In this document: positions 5,629 through 28,956 of the stretch, piece after piece
Numbering within the stretch: position 1 is the first letter of the stretch
Layout of the letters: the number at the start of each line of letters is the position of its first letter
DNA from: a virus
DNA: 30,559 bases
IMG/VR virus record: IMGVR_UViG_3300020451_000996
Span: 1-30,559 of that record
Strand: one strand, 5' to 3'
Program-made: the position numbers and the translations under genes
Notes under the pieces: model-generated
Told to the model about the DNA's origin: nothing
The model's database searches: none
What the model saw: only the letters and a program-made list of their open reading frames with translations

Positions 5629-5642
5629 GGCCCTTGGACCTA

Positions 5643-7774: not shown

Positions 7775-9111
7775 AAATATTTTCCTTTAAAGTCTAAAAG
7801 TTTCTGTATGCACACGAATTCATCTAAAAAATAATGTCTACTAATATGCCCTTTTTCATCATGGATAGCAGAATCATGTTTTGTAAACCACAGAACAGAT
7901 GTTGGTTCAAGATCAAAAGTTTGCATAATGTCAGCAACAGAATCTTTGGTCGTGTTGTAGATATGCCCAAAAGTAAATTTGTCAATTAACTTCATAAAGA
8001 TATTTGCAGATGCTTTTGGATACATTCCAATTTCGTAGTCATAAGTTTGTCGGTCATTGATTCTTTCACGTGACCATCTAAACGCAGGTCTAAGATCATG
8101 TATTGGCCAGGCTTTGTTCATGCTAAAAAATATTTGATCTATCCCATCTAGATCTAGTTGTATTTTGTCTGTTGCAACTGGAAGCCAAGTCAAGTCTAAT
8201 GCAATTTTTGCCTGTTTTTCTTTGGCTAATTTAATCACATTGTCTAATTCTTCGTTAGTGTACCAAGGTGATGGATACTCTAACAACACATTGGCATACA
8301 GTGGAATCGGTCTTTCGAAAGGATCTACTCTTATTAAGTCTGTTTCATCAAATAGTTCGCCATGCATATAATACATTTTTGGTGGCATCATTATGACTCT
8401 TGTGTTATTCACAAAAGATTCTAGTGAATCTGATACACCATTAGAGAATGTAAAGTGTTTGAATGGCCATCCATTTATTTTAACTCTTTCTGACTTAGAT
8501 ATCCAATCTATTATTTTAGATTCAGCATCATTTTCTAAAGGATTTCGTATATCTTTTAGTTTTGTTTCATTGACTACTTTGGTAATTGCTTGTGACTGTG
8601 GGGGTGTTGACCCAGTGTACATAAATTTTGCATCGCGATGAATAGTTTGAAAATTTTTATTGCGATGTTTATTGCCTTTGATTGGCCATTTTGTGTATTC
8701 AAACTCTTTGTCTGCAATAGTCCATGCCGCTTTTTTTAATAGATCATTACATTGATTAATTTTAATTTCTAAACGTCCTACATAACCGAAGTATCCGTCA
8801 AATTGTATTTCTTCTGGAGCATCTGGATGTAGATGTTTGTCGACTTTGTATTGTTGCTTTTCTAAAGAAGATTTAAAACTGCCACCATTAATCATGAAGT
8901 ATTGTAGGGTAGCATATGAGTCTTCGTCTGCTGGATCAAACTTTGCAAAGGCAACAGAAAGAGTATTTTCTTCTTCTATTTGATCTGCAGATATATTGTA
9001 TTCTGGATTTGGTGTAAGCATTTTTCCGTTCCATGAACAGGCTAAAAACCCTCCGCCAACTAGGTTGAAATTGAATCTGATATTTTCTATAGGATAATCA
9101 AACTTTGTCAT
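7768..9111 (-). CDS. Two-part protein with divergent fold-type I PLP aminotransferase-like C-terminal domain
   Basis: 447 residues from the ATG at 9111; an in-frame TTG at 9132 was rejected as it only deepens the overlap. The first 150 or so residues look beta-rich and are unfamiliar. The rest resembles class I aminotransferases in order: FTFSNGVSDSLESFV (compare T-x-G-x-x-x-A/S-L), VLLEYPSPWYTNEELDNVIKL (the N-P-x-N-P-T-G region), AKIALDLTWLP (the D-x-x-Y strand) and FFSMNKAWPIHDLRPAF, where NKAW matches the S-K-x-x-x-x-G-x-R lysine region. Several signature residues are replaced, so a PLP-binding but altered or inactive enzyme is possible. It lies between the metallopeptidase/VWA gene and the MptE-like gene, overlapping both. 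Confidence 0.65.
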   Translation of the reverse strand: MTKFDYPIENIRFNFNLVGGGFLACSWNGKMLTPNPEYNISADQIEEENTLSVAFAKFDPADEDSYATLQYFMINGGSFKSSLEKQQYKVDKHLHPDAPEEIQFDGYFGYVGRLEIKINQCNDLLKKAAWTIADKEFEYTKWPIKGNKHRNKNFQTIHRDAKFMYTGSTPPQSQAITKVVNETKLKDIRNPLENDAESKIIDWISKSERVKINGWPFKHFTFSNGVSDSLESFVNNTRVIMMPPKMYYMHGELFDETDLIRVDPFERPIPLYANVLLEYPSPWYTNEELDNVIKLAKEKQAKIALDLTWLPVATDKIQLDLDGIDQIFFSMNKAWPIHDLRPAFRWSRERINDRQTYDYEIGMYPKASANIFMKLIDKFTFGHIYNTTKDSVADIMQTFDLEPTSVLWFTKHDSAIHDEKGHISRHYFLDEFVCIQKLLDFKGKYFW

Positions 9112-10372
9112 CGTAATTACAAGACACTCCAAACGGTGGTTTTATTGGATCACCAAATTGACTGTGAATAATCCAAAGTGTATCACAGTAGTCTTCATCG
9201 CCCCACTCATATGTGTATCCATCTGTAAAACACACAAATTGTTTTGGAACAATACCGTTTTCGTCCATCCACTTGTAATTAGCACTGATATCTGTACCGC
9301 CATAACCACCTGGCTTCCAATCAAATAATTCATCAGCATTCTCTGGTGTATAGTCTGTGACACTACTTTCATGAACTTCTGTATCAAATGACCAAAGTTT
9401 TATATTGTAATCTGTGTATCCATCCATGATGTGTTTAATTTCACTTAGAAAGTCTTTTATCTGATCATCACTAATACTACCGGAAGTATCTATTGCAACA
9501 CAAAGATCAATTGTATTTTCAATAGATGATGCCGGCAAAATTGCGTCCATGTGCCAAGTTTTTCTGTTAGGACGAGCAAATGTAAAGTCCGATCTTACAG
9601 TACTCTGTATCTGTTGGCTCAACAAGTCTCTCCAATTAATTTTAGGAGCAGTAATATCATTGATCAACTTTCTTACTGCACCTGGTACCTTATCTCTACC
9701 AGCCGCCTGTCCACCTTGTAGTACTGCTTCTTTAATCTGATCTTTAAGTTCTTTTTGTTCTTCTTTGCTCATCTCAGGACATTTTACTTTGTGCTCATTA
9801 CCATCTTCATCTGTGTAGGTTGCTTCACCTTTATCAAGGTCCATGTGTACATCTAATGATTTGAGTTGGTCCAGTAACTGCATCTGGTCTTTATATTCTT
9901 CATAAAGATCATCATATATTTCTTCTGATGATTTACCTTTGTATTTGTAGTCTTGCAATATAGGAACTGAATGTATTTTTTCACCTACATTTTCATCAAC
10001 AAGTATTTGGTTCACTGCATAGTCACAAGCGATATTGAACAGTTGCGGATCACGGTCATTACGTCTAAGCAAATGTTCAAATGTCACGTGTAATACTTCG
10101 TGACCAAATAAAAACTCAGTTTCTTTCGGAGTCAATATATCAATGAAATCTGAATTGTAATAAAAGTTCTTACCATCAGTGGCCGCAGTTGGAATCCAAT
10201 CACTGGCTTCAATCAGTTTCAGTCTTGTTGCTAAATTGCCAAAGAATGGTTGTTTCAATAGCAAACCAACTCTAGCAGTGACTAATTTCTCCTTCATTGC
10301 TTCTGGGTCAGCCTTAACACCTTTGCCGACCCAATCAGTTGCTTGTTTTTTGTTTACAGTGGTAGCAGTCAT
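9098..10372 (-). CDS. VWA-like protein with N-terminal metallopeptidase-like domain (DUF2201 type)
   Basis: 424 residues. The N-terminal part holds a zinc-protease-like helix, FGHEVLHVTFEH (HEVLH at 91-95), matching the putative metallopeptidase domain found with VWA-like domains. A charged Lys/Glu-rich linker (about 155-240) follows. The C-terminal half is a von Willebrand A domain with an intact metal-ion-dependent adhesion site: AIDTSGSIS (D295, S297, S299), GGTDIS (T360) and CFTDG (D384). Its start overlaps the stop of the MoxR-type ATPase gene as TAATG. MoxR ATPases with VWA proteins typically work as a metal-insertion or remodelling chaperone pair; here the client is unknown. Confidence 0.88.
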   Translation of the reverse strand: MTATTVNKKQATDWVGKGVKADPEAMKEKLVTARVGLLLKQPFFGNLATRLKLIEASDWIPTAATDGKNFYYNSDFIDILTPKETEFLFGHEVLHVTFEHLLRRNDRDPQLFNIACDYAVNQILVDENVGEKIHSVPILQDYKYKGKSSEEIYDDLYEEYKDQMQLLDQLKSLDVHMDLDKGEATYTDEDGNEHKVKCPEMSKEEQKELKDQIKEAVLQGGQAAGRDKVPGAVRKLINDITAPKINWRDLLSQQIQSTVRSDFTFARPNRKTWHMDAILPASSIENTIDLCVAIDTSGSISDDQIKDFLSEIKHIMDGYTDYNIKLWSFDTEVHESSVTDYTPENADELFDWKPGGYGGTDISANYKWMDENGIVPKQFVCFTDGYTYEWGDEDYCDTLWIIHSQFGDPIKPPFGVSCNYDDKV

Positions 10373-11547: not shown

Positions 11548-11928
11548 TTATTGATTTTTTAAATTATTTTTGGCTTTGACTCTGCCATACTTGGCAATAT
11601 CGCCAGCAAATAAGGCCAATTCTGTTGCTTTTTTTTCAGCGAACACGTGAATATGTGTTTTCTTGGGTGCTATCCAATACGGACAATCGATGAAACGATC
11701 TATGTCTAAAGTGACCTGTGCATTCATATTCATATCATTTGGCATTTTGATACGATATTCTTTTAGTTGAACCTGCTTGGTTAGAAAATTATATCCGTCT
11801 TTTGTCAGTCTCATGGATGGATGATTCTTTCGCAAATTTCTCCACAGCCTGCAATACCATTCTTTTTCATCACCATCTATGTTTGCTTCTTTTAGAAATG
11901 CTTTGGTTAGAAGTTCTTTAGTTGCCAT
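11548..11928 (-). CDS. Hypothetical protein, 126 aa
   Basis: A 126-residue protein of unknown function. It is basic, and the first half is helical with aromatic residues (EKEWYCRLWRNLRKNHPSMRL, about 21-41). A middle segment has alternating strands (QVTLDIDRFIDCPYWI), followed by KKTHIHVFAEKKATELALFAGD. The H-I-H-V-F strand and the single CPYW motif carry no catalytic signature I recognise. Its start overlaps the end of the guanidino-modifying enzyme gene by 11 bases, so it is probably translated from the same mRNA. No signal peptide or membrane segment is visible. Confidence 0.75.
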   Translation of the reverse strand: MATKELLTKAFLKEANIDGDEKEWYCRLWRNLRKNHPSMRLTKDGYNFLTKQVQLKEYRIKMPNDMNMNAQVTLDIDRFIDCPYWIAPKKTHIHVFAEKKATELALFAGDIAKYGRVKAKNNLKNQ

Positions 11929-13051
11929 TTATTGGCGTCCTTTTTAGATCTAGAGTGATACAATGTATTCCTCCATCCCAGAAATATCTGTGTCGCCATG
12001 GGACATGGATATATCCCATATTATGTTTTTTTAAAAAATCAATTACAGTAGGATTTTTATTATTAATGCAAACTGTTTCTGGATCTAATACAAGAACATT
12101 TACATCAAACACACTTTCCTCACAAAAACCAACCCAGTGTGACAACCATGTGTTTACAAAATGTTGGAAGTCAGGATTGTCTTCTTGATCTGGCACCCAC
12201 CATGATTTTGTTATTCCTGCTTTTTGTGACAGAAAGGGACTTACCTTTGTCCATGATTCGTTGTGCAAATAACACACGTCCCAGTCTGGAAATACTTTGG
12301 CATGAGTACCAACACCTTCAACTGACAGAATAGCATCTTGTTTTATAGTATGAAACACTCCATCAGTATGCCCTCCTTCATCAATTCTTACAATATTAAT
12401 ATTTGGATATAAATTTTTAATTGTTGCTATATTTTCTTTGTAGAGTAATTCCCATCGTGGTATTCCTTTTGTCAATGAATATTTTGTAGGGGTTACAGGC
12501 AGATCTACATTAGTAATACTTGGATGCAATAATTGTGTCATCCATGGATGTGGTTCATCGCCGCCATCAACATCGATCAATAAATCATTATTAACAAGTG
12601 TATGATTAGGAGCACTGAATACATTATCTTTTAGTCTTACAACATTATCTGTACTGTATTGATCTAAAGCAACCTGGATGTTTGAGTGAGAGTCGTGAGT
12701 ACAAAATAAATGATCATTTATAACCAAGTGTGTATTTCTTGGTTCAAGTGGACTCCGTGGTACACCCTGTTGAAACCACTCGGGATCGTCTTTTCCTAAG
12801 GTTCCATGAGAATCAATATGATTCATAATTGAGTCGGAACGGTCCATTATTGGTCTAATTACAGATGCTCCGTAATTTTTTAGAACCTTTTCAAAATTTT
12901 CTAGATCCTCAAGTGTTTCATCTGCAATCTTACTCAGTGCAGATCTTATATTATTGTTTTTGATATCCCGAAAAAAGTCGGCATCATAGTTGTTTCCTAG
13001 CATGACAACCTCAAGAGGTTCCCATTTATTCCGTACACTGAAAGCACTCAT
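11918..13051 (-). CDS. Guanidino-group modifying enzyme superfamily (amidinotransferase-like)
   Basis: 377 residues resembling glycine/inosamine amidinotransferases and related arginine-modifying hydrolases, which work through a covalent thiouronium on a cysteine. The catalytic elements are in place: IDEGGHTDGVF (about 223-233; H228 and D230) and, near the end, FWDGGIHCITLDLKR with nucleophile C364. The early part has RNTHLVINDHLF, the expected strand pair. The family includes amidinotransferases (transfer to an amine) and dihydrolases; the sequence alone does not choose. It is preceded by a late-type AATAAATA box only 5 bases from its ATG. Possible roles are arginine or polyamine metabolism; speD lies elsewhere in the window. 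Confidence 0.82.
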   Translation of the reverse strand: MSAFSVRNKWEPLEVVMLGNNYDADFFRDIKNNNIRSALSKIADETLEDLENFEKVLKNYGASVIRPIMDRSDSIMNHIDSHGTLGKDDPEWFQQGVPRSPLEPRNTHLVINDHLFCTHDSHSNIQVALDQYSTDNVVRLKDNVFSAPNHTLVNNDLLIDVDGGDEPHPWMTQLLHPSITNVDLPVTPTKYSLTKGIPRWELLYKENIATIKNLYPNINIVRIDEGGHTDGVFHTIKQDAILSVEGVGTHAKVFPDWDVCYLHNESWTKVSPFLSQKAGITKSWWVPDQEDNPDFQHFVNTWLSHWVGFCEESVFDVNVLVLDPETVCINNKNPTVIDFLKKHNMGYIHVPWRHRYFWDGGIHCITLDLKRTPINGN

Positions 13052-15699: not shown

Positions 15700-15727
15700 A
15701 TTATAAACTCTTTTTCCTGTTTGTCAA
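15700..15727 (-). promoter_or_regulatory. Sigma70-type promoter with -10 box adjacent to ATG
   Basis: TTGACA (15722-15727, overlapping the queE stop codon) and TATAAT (15700-15705) with a 16-bp spacer. Six bases then precede the ATG at 15693, so initiation about 7 bases after the -10 box would begin on the start codon itself. It drives the 123-aa gene, the exonuclease, two unknowns and glutaredoxin. Confidence 0.82.
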
Positions 15728-16620
15728 GTACCAATTGCATTTCCAAAAAGATATACATGAACTCTTGCCGCTACATTGTAGCCACGTTGGAATGCCTTTT
15801 TAGCCACTTCACCTGCAGTCATACTTTGCTCTTCTTCTCTTGCTCCTACTGGCATGATCCACACAGGCCAATCAACACCTACATCTCTAAATTGTTTAAC
15901 AACAAAGTCAAGTTCTTCCCATTCTCTGTCCCTATGACCAACCACAAATTTTAATTGTCCTAAGTCTCTTGTTTCCTTGTATTCTGCCACTGTCTCTGGT
16001 TTGATTGCTTTTGCCGCCTTCTCACCTGCTACAGACCAAAGTTTTGGACTAACTGAAAAGAATACTTCTTGTTCCATATTTGCTAAGAATTCTTTGGTTG
16101 TATCTTTCAATTTTTGTGTGCCATTTGTTTCAAATGTAATTGAACTTGGAGTGTTTTCACGTTCTTGCAAGGATTTCATAATACCAACAATGGCATCCTG
16201 TGTCATCAACATCAATGGCTCTCCGCCAGTAAAACAAAGATGTTGCGTCTGACCCGACACAGGATGTCTAAACAATCCATCAGGATTGGAGTCGTTGCGG
16301 AGAATATCTACAATTTTGTCTGCTAATACTTCTGGTGTTTCTTGTCCCATTAAGTGTTTGAACTTTTTTGCCCATGTATATGAAGAATCACAACCATGTT
16401 TCCATACTGGTAAATCTTCAACCCTGTTTACAGACATAGGGTCAAAGTCTTCATATGGTAATTCATAAGTTTCGGGATTAGTTGGATCTTTTTGTCCAAA
16501 CCCATTACATTGTAAGTTACACAGAAAAAATCTGATCCATGCAGTCGGCACACCTGTATAGTGTCCTTCACCTTGGATAGAATAAAAGATCTCGGAATAG
16601 TAATACTTCTTGTCAGACAT
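15724..16620 (-). CDS. queE: 7-carboxy-7-deazaguanine synthase (QueE), radical SAM
   Basis: 298 residues from the ATG at 16620. QueE converts carboxytetrahydropterin to 7-carboxy-7-deazaguanine with SAM and a 4Fe-4S cluster. Seen: YYSEIFYSIQGEGHYTGVPTAWIRFFLCN in pieces (Y7 to N35), the QGEG substrate loop (16-19), cysteines C34, C38 and C77 as the likely cluster ligands, CDSSYTW after the third, and the SAM-binding CFTGGEP (129-135). The third cysteine is displaced by a 38-residue insertion, unlike the compact CX3CX2C. A TTG start at 16662 was rejected because it would overlap the upstream gene and the promoter. It has its own promoter and probably a leaderless mRNA. Works with FolE and a QueD-like protein encoded nearby. 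Confidence 0.88.
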   Translation of the reverse strand: MSDKKYYYSEIFYSIQGEGHYTGVPTAWIRFFLCNLQCNGFGQKDPTNPETYELPYEDFDPMSVNRVEDLPVWKHGCDSSYTWAKKFKHLMGQETPEVLADKIVDILRNDSNPDGLFRHPVSGQTQHLCFTGGEPLMLMTQDAIVGIMKSLQERENTPSSITFETNGTQKLKDTTKEFLANMEQEVFFSVSPKLWSVAGEKAAKAIKPETVAEYKETRDLGQLKFVVGHRDREWEELDFVVKQFRDVGVDWPVWIMPVGAREEEQSMTAGEVAKKAFQRGYNVAARVHVYLFGNAIGT

Positions 16621-16627
16621 ATTGTAT

Positions 16628-16655
16628 ATTATAGTATTTAATTTGTGTTTGTCAA
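16628..16655 (-). promoter_or_regulatory. Sigma70-type promoter for queE, leaderless geometry
   Basis: TTGACA (16650-16655) and TATAAT (16628-16633) with a 16-bp spacer; seven bases separate the -10 box from the queE ATG. No ribosome site fits in that space. The -35 box lies in the 3' end of the upstream gene. Confidence 0.82.
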
Positions 16656-17294
16656 CGTGCAATTTGTAATGTTGTATATATTAGAAAGGACATCCTGCTC
16701 AGTCATTGCATTGTCCTTCCAACCGGGTATAATGGTTGGATATAGCGTCATATCTGCAAAATTTGACATGGTATTCCAGTCACTGGTGCAAAGGTCTTCC
16801 GCATATCTTTTCCAAAAACTTATCAGTCTTTCTTCGTCTTTTGAATCCTCTCCTAGATGTCTAATTGTAATATCAATAACGGCATCATCTGGTAATAATT
16901 TTGTGTGATGGGTGTCTGCTTGATTCTGCATTATAAATCTATCTTTGTATCTACAATTTTCAATCTTCTTTTGAATATGGCCCACTTGACACCAAACATC
17001 TTTTGGTATTAGTATTTGAATAATAATAGCATCTGGAACTTGTTCCCTTATTTCTTTAGGTGTTTTATGCGTTGCTGTCACGCAGTATTTTTCTACATCT
17101 ATGGCATGGGGTTCATCAATCAAGATTCTTCCAGTTTCAGGTATTATAGTTGTGCTGAGTGTATTACAATTCGGATGTTCTGATATCAATGATGCAAGTT
17201 TTTCACCACCTCCGCCTGGCATATGGCATACAAAAATCCGTTTTTTATGATTAGTATTTTCTAGTTCCCATCCACAATCATTTAAATCGGCCAT
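16638..17294 (-). CDS. Unknown protein with Gly-rich P-loop-like N-terminus
   Basis: A 218-residue protein I do not recognise. After the start, KRIFVCHMPGGGGEKLASLISEHP (about 19-42 in all) has a hydrophobic strand, a glycine-rich loop and a helix, like nucleotide-binding or sulfotransferase PAPS loops, but it lacks the classic G-K-S/T. A second strand, AIIIQILIPKDVWCQVGH, resembles the later strand of a P-loop fold, and a C-terminal helix-rich part follows. It lies between the cupin gene and queE at the end of the gp45-led unit. A sulfotransferase-like or kinase-like fold is possible, with low confidence. Confidence 0.7.
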   Translation of the reverse strand: MADLNDCGWELENTNHKKRIFVCHMPGGGGEKLASLISEHPNCNTLSTTIIPETGRILIDEPHAIDVEKYCVTATHKTPKEIREQVPDAIIIQILIPKDVWCQVGHIQKKIENCRYKDRFIMQNQADTHHTKLLPDDAVIDITIRHLGEDSKDEERLISFWKRYAEDLCTSDWNTMSNFADMTLYPTIIPGWKDNAMTEQDVLSNIYNITNCTLTNTN

Positions 17295-17297
17295 GGA

Positions 17298-17651
17298 TCA
17301 TTTTACTTTGGTTCCAACTGTTCTGCGTACTATATCATCATGATTGAACTCTGCCCAATACAATTCAAATGCAACACCGTCTTCAACACCTTCAAACTGG
17401 TGTATCTTACCAGGTTTGACCTGTGTGAAATCACCTGGCAATAATATTGTTTCATCAACTAGTCCTTGATCTTCTTGCCATACTCTCACAAGCATTTTGC
17501 CAGACTCTACGTAGAATCCGTTCCATTTATACCGATGTTCATGTTCTGAACATTTGAATCCTTTTTTGTATTCTATTCTATGAAACTCAAGAACTCCATT
17601 AGCATGAATTAATTCTGTTTGTCCCCAAATTTTACCTGCTTTCATTGTCAT
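17298..17651 (-). CDS. Small single-domain cupin
   Basis: A 117-residue cupin. Motif 1 is visible as CSEHEHRYKWNGFYVESG (H37, H39 region with a downstream acidic residue) and motif 2 as LLPGDFTQVKPGKIHQFEG, giving the usual 2-His/Glu/His metal site. Small cupins of this type include sugar-phosphate isomerases and epimerases, dioxygenases and metal-binding sensors; nothing here fixes the reaction. AAGGAG lies five bases before the ATG at 17651, favouring it over the in-frame ATG at 17645. It overlaps the upstream phosphoribosyltransferase gene by 20 bases and may act on a product of the same cluster. Confidence 0.82.
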   Translation of the reverse strand: MTMKAGKIWGQTELIHANGVLEFHRIEYKKGFKCSEHEHRYKWNGFYVESGKMLVRVWQEDQGLVDETILLPGDFTQVKPGKIHQFEGVEDGVAFELYWAEFNHDDIVRRTVGTKVK

Positions 17652-18132
17652 CTTTTCTCCTTATTTGATCCATGTGCCATATCTCCCATGGGTACACAAT
17701 ATACGGATCAGTGCTCCCCTCTGTTTTACTGTTTATTGTTGTATTAATTTCTGCCCAGTAATCTGGTTGGAAATTGGCACCAGTGTTATAATATAATACT
17801 GCATACTTGACGTCAATATTTTCTTCTGCATCACAGTTGGCCTTTATACCTGCAAGTGTGAAACCTTCACCGCAATCATCATCTATAACCAAATACTTGC
17901 CTGCAGGAATACCAGTGTCCCAACTTTCATGATCTATCACACTTGATGCAATTGGTATGCATGGCACGTCAAAATAATGACTCAACATCACTGCAATTTG
18001 TAATCCACCTCTGTTTACTCCAACAATGGCATCTGGTTCATAGTTGTCTAGTTTCATTTTAGACACAATAGTATCCAACATAGATGATATGTCTTTTTGT
18101 GTAATATATAATTTATTTGGTGTACTATTCAT
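17632..18132 (-). CDS. Phosphoribosyltransferase, downstream paralogue
   Basis: 166 residues of the type I phosphoribosyltransferase fold. AIVGVNRGGLQIAVMLSHYF (35-54) is the early strand-loop-helix and YLVIDDDCGEGFTLAG (80-95) is the PRPP-binding loop (D-D-x-x-x-x-G-x-T). Such enzymes attach PRPP to a purine or pyrimidine base. The protein is closely related to the gene immediately upstream, the first 60 residues being nearly identical. This copy has DDDCGEG where the other has DDICDEG, plus a longer, more basic C-terminus (RRKDDNESR). The substrate is unknown; a xanthine/hypoxanthine-type enzyme is plausible beside guaC. Confidence 0.84.
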   Translation of the reverse strand: MNSTPNKLYITQKDISSMLDTIVSKMKLDNYEPDAIVGVNRGGLQIAVMLSHYFDVPCIPIASSVIDHESWDTGIPAGKYLVIDDDCGEGFTLAGIKANCDAEENIDVKYAVLYYNTGANFQPDYWAEINTTINSKTEGSTDPYIVYPWEIWHMDQIRRKDDNESR

Positions 18133-18148
18133 ATACTTTATTATGTGC

Positions 18149-18598
18149 TTAGTCTATGTGCCATTCTTCCCATGGATAAACAATCCAACACGGATCTTTA
18201 CTCTTATCTATCTCTACTGCCCAGTAGTCTGGAAGAAAATTGGCAGGCCTGTTATAATGTAAGACTGCATATTTTACTTCGATATCTTCTTCATCATCAT
18301 AATCACCTTTCAATCCAGCCAATGTCCAACCTTCATCACAGATGTCATCTATAACAAGATATTTGCCTGGAGGAACAGTAGTGTCCCAACTTTGATGATC
18401 GCGTAGACTTGCTTTGATAGGAATACAAGGCACATCAAAATAATGGCTCAACATAACTGCTATTTGCAAACCACCTCTATTGAGGCCAACAATAGCATTA
18501 GGTTCATAATTATCAACTTTCATTTGTGTAATGATCTTGTTTAACATTGACTCAATGTCTTTTTGGGTAAAATATATTTTATTTGGTGTACTGTTCAT
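18149..18598 (-). CDS. Phosphoribosyltransferase, upstream paralogue
   Basis: 149 residues with the same fold as its downstream neighbour. AIVGLNRGGLQIAVMLSHYF (35-54) is followed by the PRPP loop YLVIDDICDEGWTLAG (80-95), and the C-terminal hood is shared (NFLPDYWA, IVYPWEEWHID). The PRPP loop here matches the textbook acidic pattern better than the downstream copy. The start region, including an AATAAAGTAT stretch before the ATG, is also nearly identical to the other copy, so the duplication includes the translation start. It overlaps the end of guaC by 20 bases. A purine-salvage role, supplying or consuming guanine-type bases, is inferred from the guaC neighbour. Confidence 0.84.
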   Translation of the reverse strand: MNSTPNKIYFTQKDIESMLNKIITQMKVDNYEPNAIVGLNRGGLQIAVMLSHYFDVPCIPIKASLRDHQSWDTTVPPGKYLVIDDICDEGWTLAGLKGDYDDEEDIEVKYAVLHYNRPANFLPDYWAVEIDKSKDPCWIVYPWEEWHID

Positions 18599-19628
18599 AT
18601 ACTTTATTTTGTGCGTTATGGGTTTTTACAAATGTTGCACACTTAGGCATATCTTTTAAACGTCTTGCTCCTATGTAAGTTGCTGACGATCTTACTCCGC
18701 CCAGTATGTCCTCCACTGTCTCTTTTACAGGCCCTCGATATGGTAATGATATTAATCTACCTTCGTTGCCTCGGTATCCGTCTTTTCTTTTTCCATGTAC
18801 TTCCCTTGCTCTGTCTGAACTCATCCCGTAAAATTCTATATTGCCATCAACTATCTCTTGCTCTGATTCATCATGGCCTGCTAACATTCCTCCGATCATA
18901 ACCATATGTGCACCACCGCCTAATGCTTTTGCTATATCTCCTGGATAAACACATCCACCATCTGCCATGATATGTCCGTCAACTCCATTGGCGGCATCTG
19001 AACATTCAACAATAGCGGAAAATTGAGGTATGCCTACTCCAGCCATTGTTCTTGTTGTACATACCGATCCAGGACCTATTCCTATTTTTACTACATCTGC
19101 ACCATTAATTATTAGTTCTTCAGTCATTTCAGGTGATACAACATTTCCAGCAATTATTATTTTATCTGGATATTCATCTCTTATACGTTTAACAAAATCT
19201 ACAAAATTTTGATGATATGCGTTTGCTACATCTATGGTAATAAATTTTACATCAGGAAAACTTGTTAATACTTCTTGCATTGTTTTATAATCTGGAGCGT
19301 CTGGATCCCACATTATATTTGTTCCTGTACACACAGACACACTTTGTAATCGTACACCTGTACCAACTGCTTTACGCCATGTGTCTATGTTTGTTGACTT
19401 TGTTATTACAGTCATCATTTTATAATCTTGTAACACCTTAGCCATTGAAAATGTTCCTACGCCATCCATATTGGACGCAAATATAGGACAAAATTCTAGT
19501 TGTTTGCCACTGTTAATAAAATTAAAAGTCCTAGTCATTTTAACATCTGCCCTTGATGTAAGAGTAGATCGTTTAGGTTGCAACAAAACATCCTCGTAGT
19601 TTAATTTTATTTCTTGTTTTATTCTCAT
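18579..19628 (-). CDS. guaC: GMP reductase
   Basis: 349 residues of the IMPDH/GMP reductase family without CBS domains. It has LNYEDVLLQPKRSTLTSRAD (9-28), the nucleotide loop GIGPGSVCTTRTMAGVGIPQ (184-202 region) with catalytic C190, HIMADGGCVYPGDIAKAL, MIGGMLAG, then EFYGMSS, YRGNEGRLISLPYRGPV and DILGGVRSSATYIGA, which follow the GuaC rather than the GuaB pattern. GMP reductase converts GMP to IMP with NADPH, letting a phage rebalance purine pools from degraded host nucleic acid. The start overlaps the folE stop as ATGA, so the two guanine-nucleotide enzymes are translationally coupled. Confidence 0.9.
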   Translation of the reverse strand: MRIKQEIKLNYEDVLLQPKRSTLTSRADVKMTRTFNFINSGKQLEFCPIFASNMDGVGTFSMAKVLQDYKMMTVITKSTNIDTWRKAVGTGVRLQSVSVCTGTNIMWDPDAPDYKTMQEVLTSFPDVKFITIDVANAYHQNFVDFVKRIRDEYPDKIIIAGNVVSPEMTEELIINGADVVKIGIGPGSVCTTRTMAGVGIPQFSAIVECSDAANGVDGHIMADGGCVYPGDIAKALGGGAHMVMIGGMLAGHDESEQEIVDGNIEFYGMSSDRAREVHGKRKDGYRGNEGRLISLPYRGPVKETVEDILGGVRSSATYIGARRLKDMPKCATFVKTHNAQNKVYEQYTK

Positions 19629-20311
19629 CTAGGAGCAAATTCTTGTTGCAATTTAATATTGTCCATGAACTCTTTCTTGGTTGCTGGATCATCTTTGAAT
19701 GCACCTTCTAGCACAGTGGTCTGTGTCAAACTTGAATGTGCCATGATACCTCTGTTCTCACAACAACCATGTGTTGCTTGAATGTAAACACCAACGTGTT
19801 GAGATTCAGTAGACTTTTTTATTTCTTTTGCAATTACCATAGCAAGTTCTTCTTGTAGTGTGCCACGTCTTGCACACCATTGGGCAATCCTTGTGTATTT
19901 GGATAAGCCTATTAGTTTTTTATGTGCAATTATGCCAATGTATGCCACACCTGCTACTGGTTGGTGATGATGTGAACACATACTTTTAAGTTCTGATCTT
20001 ACTACCAACATTCCTTTATATGCTTCTAATGAATCATTTGGAAATGCAGTTGCTTTAGGACGTGGATCATATCGGCCACTCATTATTTCATTCACATACA
20101 TTTTTGCAAGACGTCTTCCTGTGTCTGCTGAATTAGGATCATTGTCAGTATCAATCACTAGTGATTCTAATACTGAATGAAACTTTACTTGAAGTTCGTC
20201 TATTAGTTGTTCTTTTTCGCCAGGTTCAATATGTTCTGAAATATTGTCACCTGCCCAATATCTCGCACCTGCATCTGCAAGTCTTTTTCTTATTATATCT
20301 GATACACTCAT
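19625..20311 (-). CDS. folE: GTP cyclohydrolase I (FolE)
   Basis: 228 residues, normal length for FolE. It opens the guanine ring of GTP to make dihydroneopterin triphosphate, first step of folate and of 7-deazaguanine synthesis. The zinc and active-site residues are present: SMCSHHHQPVAG (C112, H115; the usual form is CEHH), FolE strand KLIGLSKYTRI (132-142), RRGTLQEELA (148-157) and HGCCENRGIMA (H181, C183). Its distance from QueD-like, DpdA-like and QueE genes suggests use for DNA modification rather than folate. CGGAGA sits upstream of the ATG. Coupled to guaC downstream. Confidence 0.93.
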   Translation of the reverse strand: MSVSDIIRKRLADAGARYWAGDNISEHIEPGEKEQLIDELQVKFHSVLESLVIDTDNDPNSADTGRRLAKMYVNEIMSGRYDPRPKATAFPNDSLEAYKGMLVVRSELKSMCSHHHQPVAGVAYIGIIAHKKLIGLSKYTRIAQWCARRGTLQEELAMVIAKEIKKSTESQHVGVYIQATHGCCENRGIMAHSSLTQTTVLEGAFKDDPATKKEFMDNIKLQQEFAPR

Positions 20312-20344: not shown

Positions 20345-21394
20345 TTATGTGTTAATTGTAGCATATAAATTCGTTGCAGTAAAGAAATTTTTCTGTAAAC
20401 TTTTTGCCTGTTTATGAACGTGTGGCACTAGTTTTGAATGATTCTCCATAAAGTATTTTATTTTGTTAATAATTTTTTCTTTGTGTTGATTATATGCATT
20501 AAAGTCGGTAGTCCATTCAGATGGATATTTGAATTCATCCATATACATTTCACTATAACTTAATCTGTCTGGCACCATTGGAATTGAATCAACCAATGCA
20601 CCTTCATAACAAGAAATACCAAGTGTCTCTTGCAAGTTTGCACTGAACACAATCTTAGATTCGCCTAGTATATTGTAGTATTCATTTTTTGTAAGTTGTT
20701 TTGTTTGGCATACTACCCATTCATATTCTGGTAAATGATTTGCCAAGTCCTCAAAAATGTCCAGTTGTTTTTCTGGGGCCAATCTGTGCGGAAACACAAT
20801 CATTTCTTTTTTATCCATCCCTTTGTAATTAGACAATAAACTGTCCATGTATCCCATGGGCCATCCTGTTCTTACAATTTTGCCAGGTTCATTTCTTAAG
20901 TACAAATTTTTAGTAAACATATCTATATGAAAGTCTGTTGCAAAGTAATTGTGATCAATAGCATGAAACAAAGCAGTTTCAAAACTGTATGACCATTTTT
21001 TGTCTGGTATCAGTCTACCTAAAAAGTCTTGTGGATCATATGATCCGGCGTGCCATAGTGCGTGTATTTTGCAATCAACCTGTAACAGTTGTCTCATATA
21101 TTGCAGTTGTATAATACTTGGATTCCATGCGTCAGTGTACACGAAATGATCTCCTGCTTTAACTTTGTTGTCAGCAAACAGTTTAGCAACATCTATGGAT
21201 TGTTGACTTTTGTAAACATTGGTTCCTGCAAAATTTAAGAAAGCACCTGGTGTTGTAGTCTGTGGTACATTTCCTCCTGACACGGTTATAACTTTATCAT
21301 TTGTTAATCTTGATAGTTCTTGTGGAATAAATTTTTTCCATTGTGCAGTATATCTACTTTCTACTGGTTCAAGATCTATAATGTAAATGGTCAT
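20345..21394 (-). CDS. GT-B fold glycosyltransferase (GT4-like)
   Basis: 349 residues resembling retaining GT-B glycosyltransferases. The C-terminal donor-binding half is the clearest part: MIVFPHRLAPEKQLDIFEDL (P-H-R-x-x-x-E-K-x, about 198-218), YEWVVCQTK, YYNILGESKIVFSANLQETLGISCYEGAL (with the E-x-x-G-x-x-x-x-E-A motif). The N-terminal half begins with IYIIDLEPV and has ALWHAGSYDP and a predicted acceptor region. Its place between folE and the queD-like gene, downstream of dpdA in one unit, raises the idea that it glycosylates modified DNA bases, as T4 glucosyltransferases do, but glycan or protein acceptors are equally possible. Confidence 0.8.
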   Translation of the reverse strand: MTIYIIDLEPVESRYTAQWKKFIPQELSRLTNDKVITVSGGNVPQTTTPGAFLNFAGTNVYKSQQSIDVAKLFADNKVKAGDHFVYTDAWNPSIIQLQYMRQLLQVDCKIHALWHAGSYDPQDFLGRLIPDKKWSYSFETALFHAIDHNYFATDFHIDMFTKNLYLRNEPGKIVRTGWPMGYMDSLLSNYKGMDKKEMIVFPHRLAPEKQLDIFEDLANHLPEYEWVVCQTKQLTKNEYYNILGESKIVFSANLQETLGISCYEGALVDSIPMVPDRLSYSEMYMDEFKYPSEWTTDFNAYNQHKEKIINKIKYFMENHSKLVPHVHKQAKSLQKNFFTATNLYATINT

Positions 21395-21603
21395 TTTTTA
21401 ATTTTCTTTTTCTTTGCAAGTAATTTTTTATCTACTTTTCCTGTTTCTTTAAACACTTGTAGTACTTCCCAAGCAGTTCCTTTTTTGTATAATCCGCCTA
21501 CGTCATTAAACATATTGTATTGATATGTAAAATCATACAGTTCTTTCAAGTCATCGTGAATTTGATTTATGTCGCTTGGTATTGCGTATGGATCTCTACT
21601 CAT
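21391..21603 (-). CDS. Hypothetical protein, 70 aa, lysine-rich tail
   Basis: A 70-residue protein: an aromatic-rich helical part (INQIHDDLKELYDFTYQYNMF), then GGLYKKGTAWEVLQVFKETG, and a strongly basic end (KKLLAKKKKIKK). No family recognised. It overlaps the QueD-like gene by 8 bases and the glycosyltransferase gene by ATGA. The basic tail could contact nucleic acid; the location between two modification-cluster genes makes an accessory role conceivable. Confidence 0.72.
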   Translation of the reverse strand: MSRDPYAIPSDINQIHDDLKELYDFTYQYNMFNDVGGLYKKGTAWEVLQVFKETGKVDKKLLAKKKKIKK

Positions 21604-22000
21604 TTTCCTCTATTCCTTCCCAATTCTCATAGGTTTGAAAGCATCCGTTCTCTCCATCTTCAGATACTTCTATCCATATAGCACGTTTAGGATATTTTGT
21701 TTTGATTTGTTCTGCTAGATCATCTGCCATCATTTCACATGATTTGTAATCTAACTGAAGAGTTTCTTCTGCATACAGTTTTTCTAACCATCTTTTGAAC
21801 TGTATAAATTCAATATCTCTGTCGTCATGGAATACTTCAATCCATACTTTGAAATGAAATATATGTCTGTGTGGATATCCTAAAAAAGACACATCATATT
21901 CATCTCCTGTTGCTAGTGTTGGATCATCTAGTGCCGCAGGAAATTTGTGTATTCCTTCTTTTCTAAATGTTACCCATATCATTTTTGTTGGTAATGTCAT
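21596..22000 (-). CDS. QueD/6-pyruvoyl-tetrahydropterin-synthase-like protein (divergent)
   Basis: 134 residues from the ATG at 22000, which overlaps the upstream stop as ATGA and has AAAGGA nine bases before it. The layout follows QueD: IHKFPAA (H18, compare F-x-A-A-H), GYPHRHIFHFKVWIEV (H44, H46; compare H-G-H-x-Y-x-V), IEFIQFKRWLEKLY (compare V-x-D-F-x-x-L-K), SCEMMADDLAEQIK (E89; compare P-T-x-E-N-x-A) and AIWIEVSEDGENGC (compare V-x-V-x-E). QueD makes carboxytetrahydropterin, the substrate of QueE, from the FolE product. The identity is by pattern, since catalytic residues are shifted, but a folE-queE-dpdA context supports it. Confidence 0.6.
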   Translation of the reverse strand: MTLPTKMIWVTFRKEGIHKFPAALDDPTLATGDEYDVSFLGYPHRHIFHFKVWIEVFHDDRDIEFIQFKRWLEKLYAEETLQLDYKSCEMMADDLAEQIKTKYPKRAIWIEVSEDGENGCFQTYENWEGIEENE

Positions 22001-22521
22001 ATGATTGCGTCCTTTCCATATTGTTCCCATTCTGTTTTTGTTTCGTCTGTAGTAAGATCTTTTATTTTGTGAACATAAATTGCATCATTAGTGGTATCAA
22101 AATCTACATCATCTATTTTTATACAAGTGTTTACATTCCAATTCATGTCTGGTACAGGTACACTGATCAACGGAATCAATTTGTTATTATGCATAGTACC
22201 TTTGTGTTGTGTAATCAATAGTGAATAAGTTTTTGGATCAATATCTAGTGTTACCCAATATCCTTTTGAAAGTAGTTCATCGACCACGTTCATTAATGCT
22301 TGAATATGATCTGTATCAATATTTTTAAAACTGTGATTTGCACCCAAGTAGATATGTTTACATGGATAATGACTGTCTAGTGTTTTGCCAACTATTGTAC
22401 TGGCTGACTGCATACCAACCACAAACAAAGTTTGCATATTGTGAGCAGGAGTTTTTTCTACTTCAATACCTGTAAAGAATATTGCAGTATCATTCATGCC
22501 AGATTCATATGGTCGTTCCAT
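21997..22521 (-). CDS. Conserved hypothetical protein, 174 aa, in the deazaguanine cluster
   Basis: 174 residues from the ATG at 22521, which overlaps the stop of the DUF2061 gene as TAATG and has AAAGGGA five bases before it; a farther ATG at 22569 was rejected. It opens MERPYESGMNDTAIFFTGIEVEKTPAHNM and has strands TLFVVGMQS, HIYLGANHSF, YWVTLDIDP and KLIPLISVPVP, so it is probably an alpha/beta fold. No motif that I recognise marks a catalytic site. Its tight coupling to the QueD-like gene (ATGA) argues for a role in the same pathway. Confidence 0.78.
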   Translation of the reverse strand: MERPYESGMNDTAIFFTGIEVEKTPAHNMQTLFVVGMQSASTIVGKTLDSHYPCKHIYLGANHSFKNIDTDHIQALMNVVDELLSKGYWVTLDIDPKTYSLLITQHKGTMHNNKLIPLISVPVPDMNWNVNTCIKIDDVDFDTTNDAIYVHKIKDLTTDETKTEWEQYGKDAII

Positions 22522-22757
22522 TATATTCCCTTTGCTTTTTTCCATGCAGAATGCAATACATAAAACCATAACCCGTTGATAGAAGGTTCAATCAGTGCCA
22601 CAGCACCTGCCTCCCATAAACTTGCTCCTGTCATGGCACTCACAACAATCATTGCAATGAATATGTGTCCAGTTGTGTATATTAATGCCAAAGTCAAACT
22701 TGAACTTTTTATAAGTTGCTTGAATGCTCCTTGTATTCCTTGTGTAAATTCAGTCAT
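22521..22757 (-). CDS. DUF2061-like small membrane protein
   Basis: A 78-residue protein with two hydrophobic segments: LTLALIYTTGHIFIAMIVVSAM (about 21-42) and a second around AGAVALIEPSINGLWFYVLHSAW (50-72). The pattern G-A-V-A-L-I-E-P-x-I-N-x-x-x-F-Y-x-x-H-x-x-W matches DUF2061 predicted membrane proteins. Topology is probably a helical hairpin in the inner membrane. Function of the family is unknown. Its start overlaps the dpdA stop by one base. Why a membrane protein sits in a DNA-modification cluster is unclear. Confidence 0.75.
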   Translation of the reverse strand: MTEFTQGIQGAFKQLIKSSSLTLALIYTTGHIFIAMIVVSAMTGASLWEAGAVALIEPSINGLWFYVLHSAWKKAKGI

Positions 22758-25901: not shown

Positions 25902-28555
25902 TAAAATTCAAACAATGCATTGAATGTATTATTTTCCTGTGTAGCAATTAAATTCCAATTAAGTACACCAATTAAGTTGTCTAGTTTAGCATTAATTATC
26001 GACTCTTCCATGGCATCATGATCAAATGGCAATTCTTTAAACCATTCAGGCACTCTCAGTTGATCAACAGGATATGCCACACTGGTATATTGCAATGGAT
26101 TTGATTTTAATTTACATACTACCACTTTAGATCCATCTACTAAAGGTTTTGAATGTTTATCGGAATACATTTTTAACAGTCTATTCCAGTTCATACTGGC
26201 TCTTACATGACCAGGCATATTTGCTCTGCCTTGTCTTTCTTCTTTCCTTACATATTCTGTAAGATTATTACATCTTTTTGGTGATCCTTTTTCCCAGCCT
26301 GGTCTTTGCTTGAACTCTTTCCTAAAGTCCATAATAAATTCGGATACTTCTTCTTCATTAGATCCTGTCAGTACTTTTAATAATACATCACTCAAAAAGT
26401 TTTGTATGAATACTGGAGTGTCTGACCTTTTAAGATCCAGACCCATTGCTTTTACTTTGCCTTCCGTTTCTGTATCAGTCCGTTTGCCTTCAAGATCATA
26501 AATTAATATAGCATATCTTTTTTTAGTAATGAATATGCCTTTTGTTGCTATTGCTTCTCTACCTGCTCTAATAATATCACCTTTTTTCCTTGGTGTATGG
26601 AATGCCTTGTGTGCAAAGTCTGGAAAACTTGTATTCACTTCATCACCTATTCTGTCATATAAGGATATTACACTATCTTTTGTCCAAGGCAGTTTGCCGC
26701 TTTTAATATCCTCTTCTAGACTTTTGTAGGCACTAAAATACACAGAATCTGTATCACCATATATGACTGATTGACCTTTATGATCATACACACCGGTAAT
26801 AATCTCATTTACTTTTGCTCCCATGTGTTTTGTGATAACTCGCCCAGTCAGTGTTGTGCTTTGACCTAGTCTTGAATCAAAAAATCTGCACCCTGGATTC
26901 AACAATGCACCATACAGTGAATTCAAATTAATCTTTTTTACTAGTTGTCTTTTATCCCAAAACTCTGTTTCAATTTGATTGCCGGCAGTTATAGCATCTC
27001 GCATTTTGCCTTGCATTTCTTTTCTTTCTGCGTACCATCTTTCTAGCAGTCCTGGAATCACGCCTTCTATTTCAAATGTAAAGATAGTACCGTTGGCACT
27101 TAACCCCCATTTTGAATTTGAATTGTATATCATTTCGTGAACTTCAGCGGCACTCATTACTTGTTCTTCGCCATTCTCCCAATCCACCGTGATAGTTTTT
27201 GCTCTGTCCTTCTCCATTACTGCTTGATATTCAAGTGTTCCAAATTCTCCCTCCCAGGCACCTGCGAAACTCATTTTTTTACGCATACGATCTGCTATCA
27301 TGGCATCTGTTTCTTCTGGTCTAAGTTGTCCGACGATTGTTTCTGGTGCCATGTTCAATGCTCTAATCACAGAAGGATACAGAGAATTCAAATCAATTGA
27401 CCCAATCCAGTCATGCATACCTTTCTTTGGAGTAGCAACATAGGCACCTGCCGCTGGCTCAGACCCAGGCTCACGTCTGACTCTGTCTGGCACTACCATA
27501 CCACGTCTGTGTGTTTCATTTAGTATTGCTTGTTCAGTCACTGCCACTGCACCCATTGTTGTTTGAAGTAAAACTGTGTTTGCATGAGCCAGTTCACTTG
27601 CAAGATCGATAAATTTTAGTTTCTTGTCAATTTTATCAAGCAGAGCAGTATCTTGTCTGTTGTATTCTATAAATCTTTCAAAGTCTCTGTTGTACAGTTC
27701 ATCTAATGATCCTTCATATTCAGTTTTTCTTTCACCAACTTCCATTTCAGCAATATAATCTAGTGCGTATGAATGCCTTTCTTCATACATATACTTTCTA
27801 TACAGTTGCATATAGTCCAAATGCACACGGCCTATTATGTCAAATGTAACTTCTTCTTTGCCAAATCTTTCAAACTGTCTTTTGCGTGGAGCAATATTCC
27901 ACAGACACATTCTTTTTGTGTCTTGCTTACTGAGAACTTTTGCTATCCTGTTTACAATGTAAGGAATATCATAACCTTCACTGTTCCAACCTGATATTAT
28001 GTCTGCATCATCTAGCAAAGTTAAGAATGTGTCCAAAAGTTCTGCTTCATCTGTAAAGATAAAACAGTTGTCGAACTTTTTGCCAACTTCTTCAGCAAGT
28101 GCCTGTTGTCCTTTTGGAGCCAATGCCAATGTTATCAGTTGTTCAGTCCAGTTTAAGTATATTGATATTGCAGTTATTGGCATAAATGGATCTGCAGGAC
28201 TGGCATAACCACGTTCTGGATCAAAATCTACTTCAATATCTAAAAATAAACAGTTCATCTTAGGAGCATCTTTGCCTAAGTAGTTTTCTTCAAGACATCT
28301 AAAGATAGGATTTACATCACTTTCATATGTGCGTTTGCCTTTGTGCATAGAAAGTTCTCTTTTGAACTCTTTGCTTTGCTTTGTTGAAAAACGTGATACA
28401 GAATCACCATATATGCTTCTGTGTTTGCCTTTTGGATCATCATAATAGAACACATACCTTGCAGGGTAGTCAACAAACTTACGTTCGCCGTTGACTCTTT
28501 CTACAATGTTAATCTGATCACGTTCGCGATCAAAGTATGCGTCTATGTATGACAT
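25901..28555 (-). CDS. 43: Family B DNA polymerase (gp43-like)
   Basis: 884 residues (T4 gp43 is 898). The 3'-5' exonuclease domain shows FLDIEVDFD (Exo I, about 105), GWNSEGYDIPYI (Exo II) and YNRQDTALLD (Exo III). The polymerase domain shows DLNSLYPSVIR (motif A, about 387), KINLNSLYGALLN (motif B) and YGDTDSVYF (motif C, about 600). The C-terminus ends TFNALFEF, a plausible clamp-binding tail as in T4-like polymerases (L-x-F). It replicates the phage genome with the clamp encoded nearby. The start overlaps the speD stop as TAATG. Polymerases of this family accept modified bases in templates, which would be needed here. Confidence 0.97.
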   Translation of the reverse strand: MSYIDAYFDRERDQINIVERVNGERKFVDYPARYVFYYDDPKGKHRSIYGDSVSRFSTKQSKEFKRELSMHKGKRTYESDVNPIFRCLEENYLGKDAPKMNCLFLDIEVDFDPERGYASPADPFMPITAISIYLNWTEQLITLALAPKGQQALAEEVGKKFDNCFIFTDEAELLDTFLTLLDDADIISGWNSEGYDIPYIVNRIAKVLSKQDTKRMCLWNIAPRKRQFERFGKEEVTFDIIGRVHLDYMQLYRKYMYEERHSYALDYIAEMEVGERKTEYEGSLDELYNRDFERFIEYNRQDTALLDKIDKKLKFIDLASELAHANTVLLQTTMGAVAVTEQAILNETHRRGMVVPDRVRREPGSEPAAGAYVATPKKGMHDWIGSIDLNSLYPSVIRALNMAPETIVGQLRPEETDAMIADRMRKKMSFAGAWEGEFGTLEYQAVMEKDRAKTITVDWENGEEQVMSAAEVHEMIYNSNSKWGLSANGTIFTFEIEGVIPGLLERWYAERKEMQGKMRDAITAGNQIETEFWDKRQLVKKINLNSLYGALLNPGCRFFDSRLGQSTTLTGRVITKHMGAKVNEIITGVYDHKGQSVIYGDTDSVYFSAYKSLEEDIKSGKLPWTKDSVISLYDRIGDEVNTSFPDFAHKAFHTPRKKGDIIRAGREAIATKGIFITKKRYAILIYDLEGKRTDTETEGKVKAMGLDLKRSDTPVFIQNFLSDVLLKVLTGSNEEEVSEFIMDFRKEFKQRPGWEKGSPKRCNNLTEYVRKEERQGRANMPGHVRASMNWNRLLKMYSDKHSKPLVDGSKVVVCKLKSNPLQYTSVAYPVDQLRVPEWFKELPFDHDAMEESIINAKLDNLIGVLNWNLIATQENNTFNALFEF

Positions 28556-28956
28556 TAATAAATTTCTTTGAATCCGTTTGTTTCTTCTTTGATAGCATAT
28601 TCTCTGTCGAACTGTTTATATTCTACTTTCACAGGGTCAAAGTCGTCAAGTGCTTCAAACACTTTATTTTTATCCAGTGATGAACAGGTATATACGTCTA
28701 ATTGTATTAGTGCAGGATTAGATTCATCCCAAACGTGCATAGCAATATGACTTGTTTCGATTATTCCACAAATTGTAAGGCCTGCGTTGCCGGGTGTGTC
28801 CACATAACCACAAATTGGATTGTTTTGGATGTCTAGTTTTGCCATACCAATGGAATCAACAAGTTCATTCCACCATTCGACAGCAACATCACAATCACGT
28901 GGAGGTTTTTCGCACAAGGCTCTGATAATGATGTGTTTGTGTTGTGGTTTAATCAT
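28555..28956 (-). CDS. speD: S-adenosylmethionine decarboxylase (SpeD-like) proenzyme
   Basis: 133 residues, normal for bacterial-type SpeD, which decarboxylates SAM for spermidine synthesis using a pyruvoyl group made by self-cleavage. The core is GLTICGIIETSHIAMHVWDE (59-78 in all), with the serine to be converted to pyruvoyl S69 and H70, followed by IQLDVYTCSSLDKNKVFEAL (C91 as the likely proton donor). The residue before the serine is Thr (T68), where the family normally has Glu, so cleavage would be T-S. It lies between dsbA and the polymerase gene, overlapping both. speD is a known marine T4-like phage metabolic gene; polyamines bind packaged DNA. Confidence 0.85.
   Translation of the reverse strand: MIKPQHKHIIIRALCEKPPRDCDVAVEWWNELVDSIGMAKLDIQNNPICGYVDTPGNAGLTICGIIETSHIAMHVWDESNPALIQLDVYTCSSLDKNKVFEALDDFDPVKVEYKQFDREYAIKEETNGFKEIY

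Follow-up and report, generated by a model that had tools for sequence, protein, structure and literature searches.

Within the 30,559-base IMG/VR virus contig IMGVR_UViG_3300020451_000996 (hereafter the window), a putative GT-B glycosyltransferase (GT) is encoded on the minus strand between genes of 7-deazaguanine synthesis and a candidate DNA guanine transglycosylase of the DpdA type. Comparative genomics and structure modelling suggest that this block is probably a DNA-base hypermodification module in which the GT acts on deazaguanine in DNA. We give about an even chance to a fuller picture, in which these phages make, with no use of QueC, a glycosylated 7-deazaguanine in their DNA whose 7-substituent bears galactose, glucose or a variant sugar of the phage's own making. 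The modification would be widespread among large aquatic phages, would occur also in jumbo phages of Pseudomonas, and would be built from lineage-specific donors. A first-pass annotation of this DNA had proposed that the GT, or one or more of the small genes beside it, could further decorate the base. For the GT, this proposal gains comparative support from its linkage to DpdA, FolE and QueE in distant phages, from a galE behind a second GT subtype, from interleaved sugar genes and from QueC not exceeding its threshold in GT-bearing records; by contrast, two of the small genes, those of 70 residues and of the DUF2061 type, fall outside the module.

Scanning IMG/VR with the GT returned 80 loci, which were then searched with 25 proteins of the window. 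Apart from one near-identical contig, nearly all GT relatives share 56-60% amino-acid identity, and they are accompanied by a paralogue of QueD (77 loci), a conserved 174-residue protein (71), dpdA (68), phosphoribosyltransferases 1 (64) and 2 (58), folE (61), a clamp gene (58), queE (51) and polB (48), with gene order retained. That 80 loci keep a GT of such identity in the same order argues that the arrangement is not due to chance. Neighbourhood clustering of 28 loci and the window agrees with these counts, the phosphoribosyltransferase 1 family occurring in 28 of the 29 sets. Hundreds of IMG/VR contigs show the order DpdA, 174-residue protein, QueD paralogue, GT, FolE and QueE. When loci were anchored on DpdA, the GT lay 1.0-3.6 kb downstream in 64 of 80; among the 16 others, 15 end at most 1.5 kb from dpdA, and the sixteenth (L191, 1630-6252) keeps dpdA, followed by a HIT-like protein, with the 174-residue protein, QueD paralogue, GT, folE and queE missing at the site. 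Anchoring on the QueD paralogue placed a GT in 77 of 80 loci.

The unassigned genes of the block, which had also been considered as potential contributors, fared unequally in this comparison. The 174-residue protein is conserved, the 70-residue open reading frame (ORF) was found in one of the 80 loci, namely the near-identical contig, and the DUF2061-like ORF in none; with the clustering, this indicates that the latter two are not conserved module members. In addition, few genes of the block are as well conserved as the QueD paralogue ORF, which the first gene list overlooked.

Since the IMG/VR contigs represent related phages, recurrence in distant isolates and in differing orders constitutes stronger evidence. 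In the Pseudomonas phages MIJ3 and PA5oct, the GT directly follows dpdA and precedes the QueD paralogue, gpt and queE. Phosso carries QueD paralogue-GT-folE-queE, with a DpdA homologue about 170 kb away, ACP17 carries queD-folE-174-residue protein-DpdA2-GT-QueD paralogue-queE, Xanthomonas phage X1 folE-GT-DpdA2-QueD paralogue-queE, and Synechococcus phage BUCT-ZZ01 queE-gpt-queD-folE-second GT-DpdA2-QueD paralogue-GT. A GT thus stands among deazaguanine genes in five isolate groups distant from one another (PA5oct/MIJ3, Phosso, ACP17, X1 and BUCT-ZZ01), and the GT profile matched 10 of 10 genomes of the GT group and none of 11 other genomes. In BUCT-ZZ01 (L162), a 447-residue Glyco_trans_1_4 protein lies between folE and DpdA2 (5001-6344) and the GT behind the QueD paralogue (7992-9158), so that this phage could conceivably add two sugars or a disaccharide.

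This distribution bears on the idea that the GT targets surface glycans of the host or virion and sits in the operon by chance or for co-expression. Surface-polysaccharide glycosyltransferases are indeed carried by jumbo phages, yet they are sporadic and polymorphic (PMC7824862), whereas this GT is 56-60% identical and fixed beside DpdA in hundreds of contigs, lies among DpdA, FolE and QueE genes in distant isolate groups, and is missing from the 11 other genomes. Even with PglA and PimB' among the structural neighbours of the GT and a cluster of sugar-type genes elsewhere in the window (1753-5628), we therefore regard a surface-glycan role as quite unlikely.

The assignment of the enzyme itself, as a GT4-like glycosyltransferase, was upheld by its structure model and by its relatives. 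The AlphaFold2 (AF2) model, computed with 19 orthologues in the input (pLDDT 83, pTM 0.84), gave 131 Foldseek matches in the PDB at E < 0.001, GT-B enzymes of the GT4 type coming first. The leading matches were glycogen synthase, GlgM, BshA, MshA and PimB' (probability 1.00, E down to 1.9e-10), with a root-mean-square deviation over both domains of about 7-11, the domain orientation being unmatched. Among viral structure models, the best match was the GT of ACP17. Five residues are invariant in 22 sequences (E256 and E264 of the EX7E motif, R204, K209 and H115), and the modelled donor site looks intact; in GT subtype 2, D replaces the first E of EX7E in four of five aligned sequences. No Pfam, NCBIfam or PHROGs profile matched the window GT above threshold (sole Pfam match PF04577, E 0.087), and its profile gave no useful match to PDB sequences. 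Remote homologues in X1 and BUCT-ZZ01 do pass the Pfam cut-off of PF00534 or PF13692. As the window GT itself falls under all Pfam GT cut-offs, it is named GT4-like by fold, with no Pfam or CAZy membership implied. Xanthomonas phage PhiXhv-12 (L164, 7144-8858) and its relatives encode a protein distantly related to the GT (24.5% over 62%). It adjoins genes annotated as a glucosamine-6-phosphate synthase-type aminotransferase and a GlcNAc-malate deacetylase, and none of the annotations in the 17 kb seen concerns deazaguanine.

The 487-residue protein of the block is likely, though not proven, to be a DpdA, for which base exchange in DNA is predicted. It carries the TGT motifs DSGGFQ (residues 102-107), LQGE (195-198) and FDCASP (294-299), and D102-G105, Q107, L195, G197, F294-D295 and A297-F300 are invariant in an alignment of 19 sequences. 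Compared by hhalign with a DpdA2 set (X1, BUCT-ZZ01, ACP17, KVP40, Moby, pf16 and 1.081.O), the profile of these 19 sequences aligned with a probability of 71% and a pairwise E of 3.7e-5, DSGGFQ, QG, FLG and FDCASP falling on the corresponding motifs. The earlier dpdA label rests on motifs, profile match and context, even though no Pfam, NCBIfam or PHROGs profile recognises the protein; its own profile gave no useful match to PDB sequences either. PF01702 (TGT) was found in none of 15 genomes, including the DpdA2-bearing X1, ACP17 and BUCT-ZZ01, which makes that search uninformative. The window's DpdA-like protein represents a divergent subfamily. Among phages of the DpdA2 type, nt-1 contains dPreQ0 in its DNA (PMC6884629) and a vibriophage contains dPreQ1 at 15% of dG (PMC12028318).

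The presence of such a partner also argues against a GT that modifies a tRNA base, in the manner of QTMAN mannosylating queuosine. Enzymes glycosylating 7-deazaguanine are known for tRNA, where they form mannosyl- and galactosyl-queuosine (PMC8654956, PMC12518689). However, the DpdA-like protein is related to DpdA2, whose studied members act on DNA, the window GT matches no Pfam family of the QTMAN type at E up to 1, and Hutinet 2019 detected none of the queuosine-specific queA, queG and queH in the viruses analysed, so that a tRNA target seems very improbable indeed.

The fifth ORF of the block most likely starts at the ATG at position 22000, as a 134-residue protein, since this codon is preceded by a Shine-Dalgarno-like AAAGGA and forms a 4-base ATGA overlap with the preceding stop. 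Its AF2 model (pLDDT 86) found E. coli QueD as top PDB match (Foldseek E 4.3e-4, TM 0.71 by target length), and its sequence matches phrog_17812 (E 3.8e-35). Like QueD (6-carboxytetrahydropterin synthase), it has a predicted T-fold and three conserved histidines (H28, H54 and H56, invariant in the alignment), predicted to bind zinc. Unlike QueD, it shows no Cys ahead of the HxH motif anywhere in the alignment. As the catalytic Cys of QueD is located before that motif, and as a separate PF01242 protein is encoded elsewhere in ACP17, BUCT-ZZ01, MIJ3, Phosso and X1, the protein was filed as a QueD paralogue, and its candidacy as the missing QueD was rejected because several genomes carry both. 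An hhalign comparison with phage QueD sequences gave no match, with a QueD set that included wrong-frame ORFs, and the fold was settled by the structure model.

The QueD paralogue was also considered as a specific partner of the GT, and rejected as such, since it sits beside or near FolE in GT-less phages of Rhizobium, Vibrio, Aeromonas, Chryseobacterium and Cellulophaga. This suggests a role in deazaguanine synthesis more broadly, outside the GT step. In some of these GT-less phages (L307, 480-1349; L340, 9683-10540; L341, 9417-10289; L343, 9795-10574), it is followed by a family of 259-290-residue proteins, which match no Pfam or NCBIfam profile over threshold and could be another, smaller type of transglycosylase. 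Elsewhere, it forms the C-terminal part of longer proteins, of 293 residues in Chryseobacterium phage MA9V-3 (L342, 8428-9309) and of 383 residues in Vibrio phage Bakedbeans (L339, 8212-9363). DpdL, reportedly presented by Cui in 2023 as a predicted decarboxylase of 7-carboxy-7-deazaguanine (CDG), is one possible identity of the QueD paralogue.

The gene content of these genomes further points to the nature of the base. QueD was found in 11 of 15 genomes, and QueC exceeded its cut-off in none of 14 records of the GT group, some of the IMG/VR records being fragments. QueC is over its cut-off in the GT-less KVP40, pf16, 1.081.O, 2.275.O and Moby, and QueF only in KVP40, 1.081.O, 2.275.O and pf16. 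A further genome (D479) has the QueD paralogue, no GT and a QueC-family match, which indicates that QueC divides the genomes by GT content, irrespective of the QueD paralogue. With neither QueC nor QueF over cut-off in the GT group, the GT-bearing phages would encode a route to CDG, the product of QueE (PMC13329287), and then stop. We infer CDG as the stage that the base has reached, and this 7-carboxy base is probably what the GT starts from. The guaC-like enzyme, also found as an IMPDH/GMP reductase-family gene in 33 of 80 loci of GT subtype 2, presumably acts in purine supply or recycling, and with the phosphoribosyltransferases it may salvage the guanine freed by base exchange. In Stenotrophomonas phage Moby (L345), whose DpdA2 cluster has no GT, folE and queC are separated by a gene annotated as inositol-3-phosphate synthase (3454-4704).

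The association of QueC presence or absence with the GT also speaks against a sugar placed on a different base or belonging to another phage DNA modification, with the deazaguanine linkage reflecting a shared defence island. That alternative would fit the second GT of the BUCT-ZZ01 cluster and the methyltransferase-like gene that some loci carry between polB and the GT; the linkage is nevertheless specific to deazaguanine genes in all groups examined, and we consider such an origin distinctly improbable.

In the module that we favour, GTP would be converted into CDG by FolE, QueE and a QueD whose gene lies elsewhere in related genomes, and the DpdA-like transglycosylase would swap guanine in phage DNA for CDG, a CDG derivative or the product of the QueD paralogue. 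The paralogue, placed before the GT step because it is found next to FolE in GT-less phages, may work on the free base or help insertion. Finally, the GT would move a sugar from a nucleotide sugar to the substituent at position 7, most likely once the deazaguanine has been inserted into DNA, a step analogous to that of the T4 glucosyltransferases on hydroxymethylcytosine. Both DNA as the substrate and the nature of the sugar are what we infer from genomic context.

The order of the last two steps could be reversed if the GT glycosylated a free base, nucleoside or pterin intermediate, the glycosylated base then being inserted by DpdA or the pterin glycoside serving otherwise. FolE starts the pterin route, and a solved UDP-Glc:tetrahydrobiopterin glucosyltransferase (9v0w) stands at rank 34 of the PDB matches of the GT, where it is no nearer than many other GT4 enzymes; a pterin product would, moreover, leave unexplained why DpdA and QueE constantly accompany the GT. 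As for insertion of a finished base, eukaryotic TGT inserts finished queuine, and exchange of a large base is possible in principle (PMC3660597), but the DpdA-type enzymes studied chemically insert small bases, such as preQ0 and preQ1 (PMC6884629, PMC12028318). Glycosylation before insertion, or of a pterin, is thus unlikely, and sugar transfer onto deazaguanine in DNA remains our preferred reading.

Several points nonetheless weigh against it. The synteny among IMG/VR loci is not independent, the phages being related, and GT-dpdA divergence across loci is weakly correlated (r = 0.28, versus 0.78 for polB-clamp), in part owing to the two GT subtypes that occupy this slot; with so weak a signal, co-divergence was dropped as support. 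In the PDB, the GT has as its neighbours enzymes that act on small molecules and glycans, and T4 AGT and BGT are not among the 50 Foldseek matches listed. The polB-GT interval of the window holds no sugar gene, its sugar-type genes lying 15 kb off. Host QueC could provide preQ0, so phage gene content leaves the base unfixed. The sole acceptor on CDG is its carboxylate, which would yield a glycosyl ester, an unusual linkage, and decarboxylation of CDG by the QueD paralogue, if it occurs, would leave C7 with no acceptor group. Given this awkward acceptor, some change of the 7-substituent ahead of glycosylation is possible.

Sugar genes around the GT are informative about the donor. A second GT subtype (BUCT-ZZ01-like, 388 residues) occupies the same slot in a further group of contigs, and its 80 loci include dpdA in 76, the QueD paralogue in 77 and galE in 54, directly behind the GT in 53 cases; both galE tested pass the GalE equivalog cut-off. 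Furthermore, the polB-GT interval holds sugar-type genes in 82 of 151 distinct loci, including cytidylyltransferase-like, SDR epimerase and phosphomannomutase-like genes, or a GFO/IDH and ADH pair. Together, these associations favour a donor sugar supplied by the phage, which may differ from lineage to lineage; within subtype 1, we saw no clear signal of GT sequence tracking the sugar-gene cassette. The sugar-type cluster of the window comprises two DegT/DnrJ-like aminotransferases, a GFO/IDH oxidoreductase and an NAD-dependent epimerase.

Known systems provide partial parallels. As in the DpdA and DpdA2 phages (9g, nt-1, KVP40-type), FolE, QueE and a DpdA-like transglycosylase are clustered and QueD occurs in most genomes, the proteins of X1, BUCT-ZZ01 and ACP17 being of the DpdA2 type as in KVP40-type systems; unlike them, the GT-bearing genomes show a QueD paralogue and a GT, with QueC and QueF not over threshold. 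If our reading is true, the GT would resemble the T4 alpha- and beta-glucosyltransferases in being a phage GT-B enzyme that adds a sugar to a modified DNA base. In T4, the glucosylated base is a pyrimidine made as a deoxynucleoside triphosphate, whereas the acceptor proposed here is a purine analogue put in by base exchange, and the window GT, compared with Pfam and PHROGs at E up to 1, matched no T4-type family. QTMAN and QTGAL would likewise share the glycosylation of a 7-deazaguanine in nucleic acid, but they target tRNA and place the sugar on the queuosine cyclopentene hydroxyls that CDG lacks, and the GT shows no Pfam relation to them.

In the open-access literature searched, we found no report of glycosylated 7-deazaguanine in phage DNA and no link drawn between the GT of PA5oct and its adjoining deazaguanine system, which has itself been reported (PMC7824862); a 2026 review refers to predicted deazaguanine in jumbo phages and leaves glycosylation unmentioned (PMC13282480). 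If true, the module would unite the replacement of guanine by deazaguanine with the glycosylation of DNA, both known as strategies against restriction, and add a class of DNA base, a purine-analogue counterpart to that of the T4 glucosyltransferases, which might account for the nuclease resistance of such phage DNA. The module ranges over hundreds of environmental phage contigs and the isolates PA5oct/MIJ3/Paride, ACP17, X1, Phosso and BUCT-ZZ01, among which MIJ3, PA5oct and ACP17 are isolates on which the reading is testable.

The genes of the block are real and the first-pass gene list requires correction (Table 1). On the minus strand, polB is followed by a methyltransferase-like gene, a clamp gene, the dpdA-like gene, the DUF2061-like, 190/174-, 144/134- and 70-residue ORFs, the GT and folE, beyond which lie the guaC-like gene, two phosphoribosyltransferases, a cupin, a 218-residue ORF and queE. 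The four genes initially listed between folE and dpdA are all present, the fifth having been missed, and the overlapping starts and stops described there were found, most junctions being overlaps of 1-8 bases. The conserved 174-residue protein can be read as 190 residues, its ORF being open to 22569, and its relatives begin at the ATG at 22521, in favour of the shorter form; its profile gave no convincing match to PDB sequences, the sole match being a 20-residue repeat in a designed propeller. The ORF called a DUF2061 membrane protein exists, with a PF09834 score below the Pfam cut-off.

Table 1. Features of the deazaguanine-GT block, in window coordinates.
Feature	Position	Strand	Evidence
QueE-like radical SAM protein (7-carboxy-7-deazaguanine synthase)	15724..16662	-	TIGR03963 QueE E 3.4e-11, under equivalog cut-off; MIJ3 homologue annotated queE
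Phosphoribosyltransferase 2, tandem copy	17632..18132	-	Sequence similarity to copy 1
Phosphoribosyltransferase 1	18149..18598	-	PF00156 E 4.7e-9
IMPDH/GMP reductase-family (guaC-like) enzyme	18579..19628	-	PF00478 E 6.8e-66; phrog_9582 E 7.3e-102
GTP cyclohydrolase I (FolE), opening the 7-deazaguanine route	19625..20311	-	PF01227 E 1.2e-39; phrog_2197 E 1.2e-44
Glycosyltransferase, GT-B (GT4-like), 349 aa	20345..21394	-	AF2, Foldseek, alignment of 22 orthologues
Lys-rich ORF, 70 aa	21391..21603	-	Physically inside operon; 1/80 related loci
QueD paralogue with predicted T-fold, 144 aa (134 aa if started at ATG 22000)	21596..22030	-	AF2, Foldseek, phrog_17812
Conserved 174-aa protein, fold without assignment	21997..22521	-	71/80 IMG/VR loci and ACP17
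DUF2061-like membrane protein, 78 aa	22521..22757	-	PF09834 20.2 bits (cut-off 23.1); 0/80 related loci
DpdA-like DNA guanine transglycosylase candidate, 487 aa	22757..24220	-	TGT motifs, 19-sequence alignment, hhalign to DpdA2 family

Two further genes of the window were noted. A 377-residue protein (11918-13051) resembles amidinotransferases or agmatine deiminases by eye, with no Pfam or NCBIfam match at E 0.1, and an S-adenosylmethionine decarboxylase-family protein (PF02675, E 3.3e-11) is encoded at 28555-28956, adjoining polB.

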